NCBI GenBank assembly: GCA_021798915.1
Contig: JAJZBM010000002.1
Coordinates: 216,690-280,689, forward strand
DNA from: Pseudomonadota bacterium
GTDB lineage: Bacteria > Pseudomonadota > Alphaproteobacteria > Acetobacterales > Acetobacteraceae
Direction of reading: 5' to 3'
DNA length: 64,000 nucleotides
Below, piece by piece: positions 51,213 through 58,714 of the stretch; position 1 is the first letter of the stretch, and every line of letters starts with the position of its first letter. The translations under genes were made by a program, and so were the position numbers. The notes below the pieces were generated by a model, which was not told the DNA's origin, ran no database searches, and worked only from the letters and a program-made list of their open reading frames with translations.

Positions 51213-52193
51213 ATGAACGACCCCGTCTCCACCCCCATCACCAGCCCGGTGCTGATCATCGGCGCCGGCCCGGCCGGCTATACCGCGGCGATCTATGCTG
51301 CCCGCGCCGGGCTCGCCCCGGTTCTGGTGCGCGGCCTGCAACCCGGTGGACAGCTCACCATCACGACCGATGTCGAGAATTACCCCGGCTTCGCCGACAT
51401 CGTCCAGGGGCCGTGGCTGATGGAACAGATGGCGGCGCAGGCGGAGAAAATGGGGACGCGCGTGATCGATGACATCATCACCGCGGTCGATTTCACCGCC
51501 GCCCCGTTTTCGGCCAGCGGCGATAGCGGGGCACGCTATCGCGCCGATGCGGTGATCATCGCGACCGGCGCCGAGGCGCGCTGGCTCGGCCTCGACTCCG
51601 AAAAAAAGCTCGCCGGCGCTGGGGTTTCGGCCTGCGCGACCTGTGACGGGTTCTTTTTTCGCGGCAAAAACGTGGTCGTGGTCGGCGGTGGCAATACCGC
51701 CGTCGAGGAGGCGCTGTATCTGACCCATCACGCGCATAGCGTCACCCTGATCCATCGCCGCGACCAGCTCCGCGCCGAGCGCATCCTCCAGGAGCGGCTT
51801 TTCGCCCATCCCAAGGTGCGGCTGGTGTGGAACAGCGTCGTCGAGGAGATTCTCGGCGCCGGCCAGCCGGCAACGGTCGCCGGCGTGCGGCTCCGCGATA
51901 CCGTGACCGGCGCGGTCTCGGACCTGGCGACCGACGGGGTGTTCGTCGCCATCGGTCACACGCCGAACACCGCGATCTTCAAGGGCCAGATCGCGATGGA
52001 CGCGGAGGGGTATATCACCACCACGCCCGGCAGCACGCGCACCTCGCGCGCCGGCGTGTTCGCTGCCGGCGATGTGCAGGACAAACTGTTCCGCCAGGCG
52101 GTCACCGCCGCCGGGACGGGCTGCATGGCGGCGCTGGAGGCGGAAAAATTCCTCGCCGCGCGTCTTGGCGCGCATAGCCAGGCCGCCGCCTGA
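51213..52193 (+). CDS. trxB: Thioredoxin-disulfide reductase
   Basis: VLIIGAGPAGYTAAIYAARAGL...GVSACATCDGFFFRGKNVVVVGGGNTAVEEALYLTHHA...AAGDVQDKLFRQAVTAAGTGCMAALEAEKFL. Confidence 0.96.
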   Translation: MNDPVSTPITSPVLIIGAGPAGYTAAIYAARAGLAPVLVRGLQPGGQLTITTDVENYPGFADIVQGPWLMEQMAAQAEKMGTRVIDDIITAVDFTAAPFSASGDSGARYRADAVIIATGAEARWLGLDSEKKLAGAGVSACATCDGFFFRGKNVVVVGGGNTAVEEALYLTHHAHSVTLIHRRDQLRAERILQERLFAHPKVRLVWNSVVEEILGAGQPATVAGVRLRDTVTGAVSDLATDGVFVAIGHTPNTAIFKGQIAMDAEGYITTTPGSTRTSRAGVFAAGDVQDKLFRQAVTAAGTGCMAALEAEKFLAARLGAHSQAAA

Positions 52194-52324: not shown

Positions 52325-53209
52325 ATGGATTGGGACAAATTGCGGGTGTTTCACGCCGTCGCGGAGGCCGGCAGTTTCACCCATGCGGGGGATACGCTCA
52401 ATCTCAGCCAATCGGCGGTTTCGCGGCAGATTTCGGCGCTGGAGGAGGCGCTGCAAGTGCCGCTGTTCCACCGCCATGCCCGCGGCCTGATCCTCACCGA
52501 ACAGGGGGAAAGCCTCAACCGCACCGTGCGCGAGGTGTTCGCCAAGCTCGCGATGACCGAGGCCCTGCTCACCGAGAGCAAGGAAAAACCGGCCGGGCGG
52601 CTCAAAATCACCACCACCGTCAGCTTTGGATCCTCCTGGCTCGCGCCCCGGCTGCAAAGTTTTCTCGAAGCCTATCCCGATGTCACGGTGAGCCTCCTGC
52701 TCGACGATACCGACCTCGATCTCGCGATGCGCGAGGCCGATGTCGCGATTCGCATGCACCCACCGAAGCAGCCCGATCTGGTGCAGCGCCATCTGATGTC
52801 GATGCATTGGCATGTCTGCGCCTCCCCAGCCTATCTCCAGAAATTCGGCACGCCGCAAAACGTCGACGACCTCGATCAGCACCGGCTGATCCTGTTCGGC
52901 GATTATCATCCGCCGGTCGCCGACATGAACTGGCTGGCGCAGGTCGGGCGGCGCGACGGCAGCCGGCGCAAGCCGCTGCTCGAGGTCAACAGCCTGCACG
53001 CCATGCTGCTCGCCATCCGCTCCGGGCTCGGGATCGGCGCCATGCCCGATTACCTCGCGACCGAAACTGAGGACGTGGTCCGCATCCTGCCGGAGGTGAA
53101 ATCCCCGACCGTCGACGTGTTCTTCGTCTATCCCGAGGAATTGCGCAATTCCAAGCGAGTCGCGGTGTTTCGTGATTTCCTGCTCGCCCGCCTCGCCGAG
53201 ATGGCGTGA
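52325..53209 (+). CDS. LysR-family regulator (VtlR/LsrB-like by context)
   Basis: MDWDKLRVFHAVAEAGSFTHAGDTLNLSQSAVSRQISALEEALQVPLFHRHARGLILTEQGE; trxB neighbour. Confidence 0.9.
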   Translation: MDWDKLRVFHAVAEAGSFTHAGDTLNLSQSAVSRQISALEEALQVPLFHRHARGLILTEQGESLNRTVREVFAKLAMTEALLTESKEKPAGRLKITTTVSFGSSWLAPRLQSFLEAYPDVTVSLLLDDTDLDLAMREADVAIRMHPPKQPDLVQRHLMSMHWHVCASPAYLQKFGTPQNVDDLDQHRLILFGDYHPPVADMNWLAQVGRRDGSRRKPLLEVNSLHAMLLAIRSGLGIGAMPDYLATETEDVVRILPEVKSPTVDVFFVYPEELRNSKRVAVFRDFLLARLAEMA

Positions 53210-53337
53210 GCGCGCGACCGGGCTATGCATTTCGGGCATGGATGCTGCCCTGATTTATCCCTGGCTTCGGAAAGCGAAACCGGCATAGTTCGGAACGCGC
53301 TGCCGCAACCCCTGGTTATGGGCAATGTATGCTCGTC

Positions 53338-53466
53338 AGGGCCTCGCGGCCGCGCCAGTCCGGCCTTCCCGCCGGGTTGCCCGGGCCGACATCCCCCTTC
53401 GTCGTCCGGGTGTGAAGCCTCCCTGTTGACTGCCCCGCCGGGAGAAATCCGGGCGGGGCTTCTTTC
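53338..53466 (+). ncRNA. Candidate sRNA (AbcR-like) downstream of lysR, ending in intrinsic terminator
   Basis: 267-bp intergenic region; hairpin CCCGGGCCGAC-ATCCCCCTTC-GTCGTCCGGG, single-stranded CCTCCCTGTTGAC, then terminator; 5' end approximate (TATGCT at 53328-53333). Confidence 0.45.
53433..53466 (+). terminator. Rho-independent terminator
   Basis: GCCCCGCCGG-GAGAAAT-CCGGGCGGGGC followed by TTCTTT. Confidence 0.8.
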
Positions 53467-53475
53467 CAAGGGCGG

Positions 53476-54024
53476 CTATTTCATATCCATCCCGCCCATA
53501 TCCTTCATATCCCCCATGCCGTCATGGCCATCGCTGCTCTCGTCCGCGTCGCTCGTGGGGCCGCTGGCGCCGGCCTTGAGAACATGCGCCTCGACGATGA
53601 GCGTCCCGGCATGGGCGAAGGTGAGCGAGACCGGAAATGTATCGCCGGGCTTGAGCGGCTTTTGCAGCCCGACCAGCATGATGTGATAGCCGCCGGGCTT
53701 GAACGCCACGCGCTGGCCGGCGGGGATCGGGATGCTGGCGACGTCGAGCATGCGCATCACCCCGCCATCGTTGCGCGTCTGGTGCAGGACCGCGGCGGTC
53801 GCGATCGGGGTGCGGGCATGGGTCAGCGCGTCATCGCCGCCGCGATTGACGATGGTGAGATAGACGACGCTCGACATGCCTTCCTCGGCCGCGGCGCGCG
53901 CCCAGACACGCTGGACGACGATGCCGCCATGGGCGACGGATTGCGCCGGGGCGGCGGGCGGAAACGCCGCCAGGAACGGGGCGGCGAGCAGGAACGGGGC
54001 GAAAAACGCGAGGCGGCGGCGCAT
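53476..54024 (-). CDS. Periplasmic copper chaperone PCu(A)C family
   Basis: VWARAAAEEGMSSVVYLTIVNRGGDDALTHA...MRMLDVASIPIPAGQRVAFKPGGYHIMLVGLQKPLKPGDTFPVSLTFAHAG; Met/His-rich tail. Confidence 0.9.
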   Translation of the reverse strand: MRRRLAFFAPFLLAAPFLAAFPPAAPAQSVAHGGIVVQRVWARAAAEEGMSSVVYLTIVNRGGDDALTHARTPIATAAVLHQTRNDGGVMRMLDVASIPIPAGQRVAFKPGGYHIMLVGLQKPLKPGDTFPVSLTFAHAGTLIVEAHVLKAGASGPTSDADESSDGHDGMGDMKDMGGMDMK

Positions 54025-56263: not shown

Positions 56264-58714
56264 TCAGGCCTGATCGGCGGCGGTCTCCAGGCGCCGCAAC
56301 CGTCCACCGGCGGGTAGCGCCGGCCGCTGGTCGCCGGTGAGCAGGCTCGCGAGCGCATCGGCGGGGGCTGGGCGGCCGAGCAGATAGCCTTGCATTTCGG
56401 CGTTCGATTCCTGTTGCAACAGGTGAAGCTGGGTTTCGGTTTCAACCCCTTCCGCGGTGACATCGAGGGTCAGGCTGCTGGCGAGTGCGACGATCGCCCG
56501 CACGATCGCCATCGCCTCGTCATTCTCGCCGAGCGCCTGAATGAAGGAGCGGTCGATTTTCAATTTGTCGAAGGGGAAGCGGCGAAGATAGCTGAGGCTG
56601 GAATAGCCGGTGCCGAAATCGTCGAGCACGATGCGCAGGCCGAGCGCCTTGAGCGCGGTCAGAGTGGCGAGCGTGCCCTCGGTATCCTCGATCAGCAGGC
56701 TTTCGGTGACTTCGAGTTCGAGCCGGGTCGGCGCGAGGCCGGTCTGGGCAAGAATATCGGTCACCGTCGCAACGAGGTTGCCGGCACGGAGCTGGGCCGG
56801 TGAAATATTGACGGCGATGCGGTGCGGCTGCGGCCAGGCGGCGGCTTCGGCGCAAGCGGTTTCGAGAACCAGGCGGCCGAGCGGCACGATGAGGCCGCTT
56901 TCCTCCGCCAGCGGAATGAAATCGGCCGGCGAGATCGCCCCGTGCTCGGGATGCGGCCAACGCGCCAGCGCCTCGAACCCGGCCAGCGTCGTCCCGTCAT
57001 TCTTGAACAGCGGCTGAAAATGGATGGCGAGCGTCCGCCGCCGGATGGCGAGGCGGAGATCCTGTTCGAGATGCCGGCGGCGCTGCAATTCGGCGTCCAT
57101 CGCCGGATCGAACAGGCGCGCCACACCGCGCCCGGCGCGTTTGGCCGAATAGAGCGCGGTATCGGCGTTTTTCAGCAGCTCGTCGGGGGTCGCGCCATGC
57201 CCAGGATAGAGCGCGATCCCGATGCTGGTGCTGATCTGGGCGAACTGCACGCCGATCTCGAACGGCTCGATCAGGGTCGCGATCACCCGCTGCGCGGTTT
57301 GGCTCGCGCGCTCGGCGTCGGCCCCGACTGGGAGCAGGATGACGAATTCGTCGCCGCCGAGCCGCGCGATGATCTCGGCGCCGCGGGCGGCGGCGCGCAG
57401 CCTTGCTGCGACACGGATCAGCACCTGATCCCCGGTGGGATGGCCATGGAGATCGTTCACCGCTTTGAAGCGGTCGAGATCGAGGGAAAGCAGCGCCAGG
57501 TTCTCGCCGCTCGCCGCCGCGCGGGTGATCGCCGCGGCGATGCGCTCGCGCAACAGGGAGCGGTTGGCAAGGCCGGTGAGCGGATCGTGATGAGCGAGGT
57601 AGTGCAGCCGTTCGGCGGCTTTTTTGCGCTCGGAAATATCGCGGAGTGCGACGACCTTCGCCGATTTTCCGCCATATTCAATGTCACGCGCCAGAACTTC
57701 GACCGGAAGAAGCGCGCCATCGGCGGCACGAAAGACGCATTCCTCGAGTTCGGTCCGGCCAGTGGTGAGGCGCGCCTTCACGTGTTCGACCTCTTCCGCG
57801 GCGGCGAAATCGAGCACCGAGCGGCCGATGATATGCGCCGGCGGCAGGCCGACCATCGTTGTGAAAGCGGCGTTGACGTCGAGGATGATGCCGTCGCGAT
57901 GGATCATCAACCCCTCGAAGGCCGAATCGGCGATCTGGCGCAGACGCCAGGCCTCGGCGAGATCGCGGCGTTCCATGCGGGCGTCGATGACCGCGAGCAT
58001 CAGCCCGGTGAGCAGAATGAGAGTGCTGATCGCGGCCACCGCGATCGCCAGCAGTGCCGGCGTGAACACCGCATCCCCGGGCGCGATGCCGGGGCCGAGC
58101 ACCGGCACCAGCACCACCGCCGTCATGCCGGTGAAATGCATCGCGACGATGGCGAAAGCCAGCAAAACCCCGCCCGCGAGCCGCCCGGCGATGGTCTGCC
58201 AGCGCCCGACGACGAACAGCGCCAGCGCCCCGCTCGCCGCGCCGACGATGATCGCTGCGATGACATAAGGGCGCTGGAACATCACGATGGCGCCGAGACG
58301 CATCGCCATCATGCCGGTGAAATGCATGGCGGTGATGCCGAGGCCGACGATCGCCCCGCCGACCAGGGCGGGCAACGGGTGGCGCGGCGCGGTCAGGAAC
58401 AAGGCGAAACCAGGCAGGGTGCCGAGAATTGCGACGAGGATCGAGAACACCGTCCATGACACGTCATAGGCGACGGACATCCGGGTCTGGAAGGCGAGCA
58501 TGGCGACGAAATGGAGCGCCCAGACGCCGCTTCCGAACGAGAATGTCGCCGCGATGGCCCAGAAGGCGCGGTTCGTGCCGGCGTTTTTCATCGCGCGCGT
58601 GAGCATGGCGACGACGGTTGCGCAGGCGATGGCACAGATCAGAACGGCCAAAGCCACCAGCCTGGGGTCGTGCCGCTGCGTCAGACACGTGAAAATCTGC
58701 ACCATCGAAATCAC
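56264..58714 (-). CDS. MHYT-PAS-GGDEF-EAL cyclic-di-GMP enzyme
   Basis: MHFTGM repeats in TM N-terminus; PAS; ARLGGDEFVILLPV; FEALARWPHPEHGAISPADFIPLAEESGLIVPLG. Confidence 0.93.
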   Translation of the reverse strand: MISMVQIFTCLTQRHDPRLVALAVLICAIACATVVAMLTRAMKNAGTNRAFWAIAATFSFGSGVWALHFVAMLAFQTRMSVAYDVSWTVFSILVAILGTLPGFALFLTAPRHPLPALVGGAIVGLGITAMHFTGMMAMRLGAIVMFQRPYVIAAIIVGAASGALALFVVGRWQTIAGRLAGGVLLAFAIVAMHFTGMTAVVLVPVLGPGIAPGDAVFTPALLAIAVAAISTLILLTGLMLAVIDARMERRDLAEAWRLRQIADSAFEGLMIHRDGIILDVNAAFTTMVGLPPAHIIGRSVLDFAAAEEVEHVKARLTTGRTELEECVFRAADGALLPVEVLARDIEYGGKSAKVVALRDISERKKAAERLHYLAHHDPLTGLANRSLLRERIAAAITRAAASGENLALLSLDLDRFKAVNDLHGHPTGDQVLIRVAARLRAAARGAEIIARLGGDEFVILLPVGADAERASQTAQRVIATLIEPFEIGVQFAQISTSIGIALYPGHGATPDELLKNADTALYSAKRAGRGVARLFDPAMDAELQRRRHLEQDLRLAIRRRTLAIHFQPLFKNDGTTLAGFEALARWPHPEHGAISPADFIPLAEESGLIVPLGRLVLETACAEAAAWPQPHRIAVNISPAQLRAGNLVATVTDILAQTGLAPTRLELEVTESLLIEDTEGTLATLTALKALGLRIVLDDFGTGYSSLSYLRRFPFDKLKIDRSFIQALGENDEAMAIVRAIVALASSLTLDVTAEGVETETQLHLLQQESNAEMQGYLLGRPAPADALASLLTGDQRPALPAGGRLRRLETAADQA

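Follow-up and report, generated by a model that had tools for sequence, protein, structure and literature searches.

The trxB–lysR locus and its predicted small RNA gene

The window (the whole 64,000-nt stretch of DNA analysed here) contains a trxB gene and a lysR gene on the + strand, facing a convergent PCu(A)C copper chaperone gene; the identities of all three were confirmed with curated models. Between the lysR stop at 53209 and the stop of the convergent gene at 53476 lies a gap of 266 bp, which holds a LysR-type box, a −10 element and a predicted small RNA (sRNA) gene:

51213–52193, + strand: trxB, thioredoxin reductase (TIGR01292, 396 bits; cutoff 343)
52325–53209, + strand: lysR, LsrB/VtlR-type regulator (PF00126, PF03466)
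53225–53239, + strand: LysR-type box ATGC-N7-GCAT (ATGCATTTCGGGCAT), recurrent in homologous gaps (counts below)
53236–53248, + strand: overlapping GCAT-N3-TG-N3-(T), from sequence; consensus from PMC7486931
53284–53289, + strand: −10 element CATAGT, kept in 4/4 congeners compared
53296–53466, + strand: predicted sRNA, about 171 nt; start placed 7 nt past the −10
53356–53379, + strand: hairpin 2, CUUCCC loop (fold)
53380–53410, + strand: hairpin 3, AUCCCCCUUC loop (fold and comparison with relatives)
53391–53400, + strand: C-rich loop ATCCCCCTTC (sequence)
53411–53431, + strand: single-stranded linker UGUGAAGCCUCCCUGUUGACU with the anti-Shine-Dalgarno motif CCUCCC (sequence, fold, congeners)
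53418–53430, + strand: CCTCCCTGTTGAC (sequence)
53432–53465, + strand only: intrinsic terminator, GC-rich, with a TTCTTT tail (sequence, fold)
53476–54024, − strand: PCu(A)C copper chaperone gene, convergent (PF04314); boundary, outside the system

The −10 element places the probable start of the sRNA near 53296, 86 nt past the lysR stop. All the elements named in the initial annotation are present in the gap: the C-rich hairpin loop, the unpaired CCTCCCTGTTGAC and the + strand terminator. The span given there, 53338–53466, covers the 3′ portion of the sRNA, leaving out the 5′ third and the promoter (53225–53239 and 53284–53289).

In the predicted fold, the sRNA has three hairpins and, ahead of its terminator, an open GUGAAGCCUCCCUGUUGACU linker. 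The linker is mostly unpaired, and CUUCCC and AUCCCCCUUC are exposed in two loops; the CUCCC-type anti-Shine-Dalgarno motifs proposed earlier are predicted to be accessible in both loops and in the CCUCCC of the linker. The stability of the fold is modestly unusual compared with shuffled sequence (z = −1.9 for 53338–53467 and −2.1 for 53388–53467), so it is conservation, rather than the fold by itself, that lifts the locus above chance. Identity to three congeners reaches 98% in the linker, 92% in the third hairpin and 100% in the −10 element; it is 76% in the 5′ part of the sRNA and 66% in the neighbouring end of the PCu(A)C coding sequence.

A family of lysR-linked RNAs across Alphaproteobacteria

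Orthologues of lysR were taken from 40 related genomes and the DNA past their stop codons was inspected. The arrangement is shared by 18 of the 40, where, outside the window's genus, the core is mostly CGTCTCCCAGACGTGAAGCCTCCCTGT followed by a terminator. From the relatives, with the window sequence left out of training, a covariance model of the RNA core (R1) was built. R1 was restricted to the core because the MAFFT alignment that included the terminator (A1) misaligned the terminator stem. With an even sampling of the class, R1 finds matches at E<=0.01 in at least 154 of 385 alphaproteobacterial genomes and at least 110 of 277 genera (about 40%), the genome count probably being a lower bound. 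These include Azospirillum, Magnetospirillum, Roseomonas, Belnapia, Inquilinus and Reyranella, as well as Acidiphilium sp. STC_15 and Acidocella sp. 20-57-95. The family consensus reads ACGTCTCCCAGACGTGAAGCCTCCCTGTT-terminator, and its typical position is directly 3′ of trxB–lysR: among the named matches with enough upstream DNA, 52 of 64 have lysR within 700 nt. Several Acetobacteraceae have trxB–lysR without an adjoining RNA.

Compensatory change is clear in the family. Across 99 distinct sequences, 94.2% of cells are paired over two stems. Double changes number 75, compared with 16.9 after shuffling, and in each of the five pairs of stem 1 both partners vary; the alignment behind these figures was fitted to R1 and favours the modelled structure. 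The initial annotation had left conservation as a matter to be checked, and the RNA proves to be kept far outside this strain.

The window sRNA belongs to this family as a local variant. R1 scores it at 24.7 bits (E 8e-4), with no second match below E=0.5 in the genome, and the sRNA has lysR and the box upstream and a terminator downstream. This score is low, and the family's most conserved hairpin (CGTCTCCCAGACG) is lost: where most relatives have a CGUCU-CCC-AGACG hairpin, the window sRNA has the longer hairpin 3 with its AUCCCCCUUC loop, and the linker is unchanged. No earlier description of the core sequence was found in the full-text literature, in which subscription journals are thinly covered, and the main text of an sRNA-seq study of Azospirillum brasilense Sp245 (PMC7685610) gives no tie to the locus.

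Promoter and LysR box

Of 110 distinct gaps between lysR and the RNA, 79 contain the palindrome ATGC-N7-GCAT. It is absent from 110 lysR-end stretches of equal length and from 110 stretches downstream of the RNA (0/110 each), and appears on average 0.34 times after shuffling; half-site spacings other than 7 give 0–2 occurrences. In the window, the box lies ~45 bp ahead of the −10 element, and homologous gaps likewise have a −10-like element about 45 nt past the box. The published VtlR/LsrB box, GCAT-N3-TG-N3-T, overlaps the right half of the palindrome, and the window sequence matches it in all but the last base (a final C). In Sinorhizobium meliloti, LsrB binds and activates PabcR1 via a T-N11-A / GCAT-N3-TG-N3-T box at −61 to −49 (PMC8844928), and the distance from box to start in the window is about equal. 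VtlR binds the abcR1 promoter of Agrobacterium tumefaciens, and the VtlR box was suggested to be perhaps confined to Rhizobiales (PMC7486931).

The box also accompanies RNA copies that are not close to lysR. It is retained by 19 of the 43 copies that have no lysR within 750 nt. As the box travels with the RNA in such copies, it argues strongly against a mere 3′ untranslated region. On these sequence features, the predicted sRNA gene has a promoter of its own and is more than lysR read-through. At L133 (where the copies are about 2.2 kb apart) and at other loci of family f105, the RNA is present twice on the same strand. Each copy has a LysR box to itself and lysR is not nearby; the duplication resembles that of AbcR1/2.

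The LysR regulator

The initial annotation had pointed to VtlR/LsrB-type LysR regulators next to trxB in Rhizobiales; the trxB–lysR pair corresponds to trxB–lsrB/vtlR in position and sequence. The window LysR is 49% identical to the Sinorhizobium LysR encoded ahead of ar15 RNAs (the Rfam family of AbcR), and its recognition helix is near-identical to that of VtlR/LsrB. With the VtlR/LsrB regulon of Brucella, Agrobacterium and Sinorhizobium, the locus further shares the GCAT-N3-TG-N3-T box (with the one mismatch), the trxB partner and an adjoining sRNA. It differs in lacking the LsrB redox cysteines: the window LysR has a single cysteine (C165), outside the LsrB redox positions. Redox sensing by LsrB depends on its cysteines (PMC11975290), so the input signal may differ, and, judging from the protein sequence, LsrB-type thiol sensing cannot apply unchanged to the window LysR.

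A tree built from 112 LysR proteins places those linked to SorX/SorY in one supported group and those linked to ar15 in another. Elsewhere in the tree, the presence of the RNA is patchy, with several apparent losses within Acetobacteraceae. Five loci (L248, L257, L258, L260 and L261) retain trxB–lysR with such an RNA absent downstream, and L248 and L261 have a similar coding sequence almost directly after lysR. The RNA may have been lost at these five, whose lineages lie close to the ar15-linked lysR in the grouping. On plasmid ABSP7_p2 of Azospirillum brasilense, a close lysR paralogue (60.8%; L246) stands without trxB and without the RNA; this species also has an RNA-linked lysR copy (L319).

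Relation to AbcR, SorX/SorY and MmgR

Scanned against Rfam, the window has no match at or above a family's cutoff, and the initial annotation's AbcR-like reading holds in part. AbcR1 and AbcR2 of Rhizobiaceae and Brucellaceae lie 3′ of trxB–lsrB/vtlR in the published order trxB-vtlR-abcR1-abcR2-arsR (PMC7486931). Two plasmid-collection records, from Sinorhizobium and Shinella, agree with this order. Each contains trxB, a lysR with 49% identity to that of the window, the box (exact in Sinorhizobium; in Shinella the one-base variant GTGC-N7-GCAT), a pair of ar15 RNAs (113 and 107 bits, and 103 and 97 bits; cutoff 40) and an ArsR-like frame. The window sRNA occupies the same slot after trxB–lsrB, with a candidate LsrB/VtlR box ahead (the palindrome exact) and an intrinsic terminator. 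In its predicted fold, it has the two anti-Shine-Dalgarno motifs of the AbcR design, one in a hairpin loop (CUCCC in AbcR) and one in a C-rich single-stranded linker. However, ar15 RNAs are tandem and about 115 nt long, whereas the window sRNA is single copy and about 171 nt long, and its linker is GAAGCCUCCCUGUUGAC where ar15 has UUCCCCUC. Neither model finds the other: ar15 (RF02345, cutoff 40 bits) has no match in the window sRNA even at E=10, and R1 has none on the Rhizobiaceae AbcR loci. The AbcR-like reading thus stands for the design and the locus; membership of ar15 as Rfam delimits it is not supported.

Searches with ar15 over 240 and 30 genomes of the class gave nothing above cutoff; the weak matches that were inspected lay away from lysR and looked like chance. 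A pattern derived from the two AbcR anti-Shine-Dalgarno motifs gave 18 scattered matches, none of which was taken as AbcR. Three loci (L184, L185 and L187) carry several CTCCCA-type hairpins ahead of the core, an intermediate design.

Among Rfam families, the window most resembles SorX (RF02784) in a permissive search, a candidate absent from the initial annotation; the match scores 23.7 bits (E 0.0014 over 371 nt), where 46.6 is the cutoff. The match spans the linker and terminator, with CCUCCCUGUUG identical, and in Rhodobacter SorX/SorY, too, a CCUCCCUGUUG-GACU linker stands immediately ahead of the terminator. Relatives of the window RNA reach up to 42.6 bits with SorX. SorX/SorY follow the corresponding lysR (about 50%) in Paracoccus denitrificans and in four genomes whose SorX/SorY, and whose grouping with Paracoccus, suggest a Rhodobacter-like identity. 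At these lysR-linked loci, the SorX cutoff is exceeded in four of five, the SorY model reaches only 62 bits in the Rhodobacter-type genomes (RF02651, cutoff 111 bits; no match in the window), and the box is present in the four Rhodobacter-type genomes and absent in Paracoccus denitrificans. The window RNA differs in its 5′ part, and R1 scores the SorX/SorY locus of Paracoccus at only 12 bits. Searching 200 genomes of the order with the SorX model returned many sub-threshold matches, which are not usable alone because 6 of 14 control genomes match too. In Rhodobacter sphaeroides, SorX is processed from an ompR-type mRNA and SorY has its own promoter (PMC6238624).

MmgR/suhB RNAs share the combination of hairpin, CUCCCU linker and terminator. 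The suhB/MmgR model (RF00519, cutoff 41 bits) has no match in the window; it has sub-threshold matches in relatives, reaching 40.6 bits on a Tistrella relative of the window RNA. Rfam places suhB/MmgR and ar15 in one clan. By the models of ar15, SorX and SorY themselves, the window sRNA is a form of the family outside all three, and it is unlisted in Rfam.

Proposed function and alternative explanations

The conserved RNA, its covariation, the box and the synteny emerge directly from the comparisons. We consider it about 75% probable that the locus encodes a trans-acting sRNA with its own LysR-activated promoter and anti-Shine-Dalgarno motifs, the Acetobacteraceae form of a class-wide family. 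The adjacent LsrB/VtlR-type LysR would bind ATGC-N7-GCAT and activate transcription from the sRNA promoter. The C-rich loops and the CCUCCCUGUU linker would then pair with Shine-Dalgarno sequences of target mRNAs, thereby blocking their translation, most likely together with Hfq. In Rhizobiaceae this slot belongs to AbcR1/2, and in Rhodobacter-type genomes to SorX/SorY. The best reading of the window system is LsrB-like in control and AbcR-like in design.

Alternatively, the locus may give no independent RNA, just the 3′ untranslated tail of the lysR transcript with its terminator; the initial annotation had named such read-through as one ground for refutation. The strand is the same, 86 nt separate the lysR stop from the predicted start, and SorX, which is cut from an mRNA 3′ end, provides a precedent (PMC6238624, PMC9438474). 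We regard this reading as unlikely, since the conserved core is larger than a terminator requires, the box and −10 element lie between lysR and the RNA, and boxed copies exist away from lysR, including the tandem copies of L133. Far less probable still is a bidirectional terminator serving lysR and the PCu(A)C gene: the genes converge on a strong GC hairpin, but the − strand has no T-run, and the core is kept in distant relatives with different downstream sequence, which, like the box, contradicts such a role.

For the origin of the proposed sRNA gene, direct descent from the gene that also gave rise to AbcR/ar15, with divergence beyond the reach of the Rfam model, falls just short of an even bet. 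The common slot, box and design speak for it, as do the shared clan with suhB/MmgR, the near-cutoff suhB score in Tistrella and the intermediates with several CTCCCA hairpins; the mutual silence of R1 and ar15 speaks against it, and two unrelated C-rich sRNAs could have occupied one slot independently. Membership of the SorX/SorY family is somewhat less likely than not: SorX gives the best Rfam match, with its identical CCUCCCUGUUG and stronger scores in relatives, and SorX/SorY follow the corresponding lysR and share its box, but the window RNA stays under both cutoffs and R1 barely registers the Paracoccus locus. Because homology to ar15 was sought both ways and went undetected, one descent for all forms is offered as a hypothesis; we give even odds that AbcR, SorX/SorY and the majority form described here go back to a single sRNA gene, which an early alphaproteobacterium carried next to an LsrB-type lysR. 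If so, the LysR–sRNA pair has persisted for most of the time since the class arose, and the RNA was remodelled around a C-rich anti-ribosome-binding-site core.

AbcR and SorX/SorY have so far been studied as separate, lineage-specific sRNAs in nutrient uptake and singlet-oxygen stress, respectively. If the slot is shared from Rhizobiaceae to Acetobacteraceae, with an LsrB-type LysR, ATGC-N7-GCAT and a C-rich sRNA, they would be variants of one circuit, supplying many species with a ready RNA family and a testable regulator. The VtlR box would likewise extend beyond Rhizobiales to much of the class.

Candidate targets

AbcR1/2 use such motifs to silence the mRNAs of transporters, acting at the ribosome-binding site (PMC8844928). 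A scan for starts preceded by CAGGGAGG, the complement of CCTCCCTG, covered the window genome and two congeners and yielded 33 sites versus 9 for the reversed pattern. Five of the genes are predicted to encode periplasmic binding proteins (four of five over the Pfam cutoff), including an orthologous pair (L407/L391) and two LivK-like genes (L404 and L409). The matched control GTGGGAGG gave 29 sites with one binding-protein lookalike, assigned by eye and without a Pfam match; over the three genomes, the difference of five versus one is in the expected direction and not significant. ABC-transporter mRNAs are plausible candidate targets of the sRNA. A linker complement at 57551 lies inside a GGDEF/EAL gene and was set aside.

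Two start regions are complementary to the linker GAAGCCTCCCTG over 12 bases: L419 (G000:C39:40686-40701) perfectly, and L412 (G000:C20:186092-186107), which precedes a prpB-like gene also among those from the scan, with one G-U pair. Furthermore, an identical leader, GCTGACAGGTCGCAGGGAGGAAGCTATATGACACGC, precedes a five-codon frame (MTRHR or MTRQR) at L417 (G000:C28:50553), L393 and L394; it is kept in all three genomes searched and is complementary to the RNA linker.
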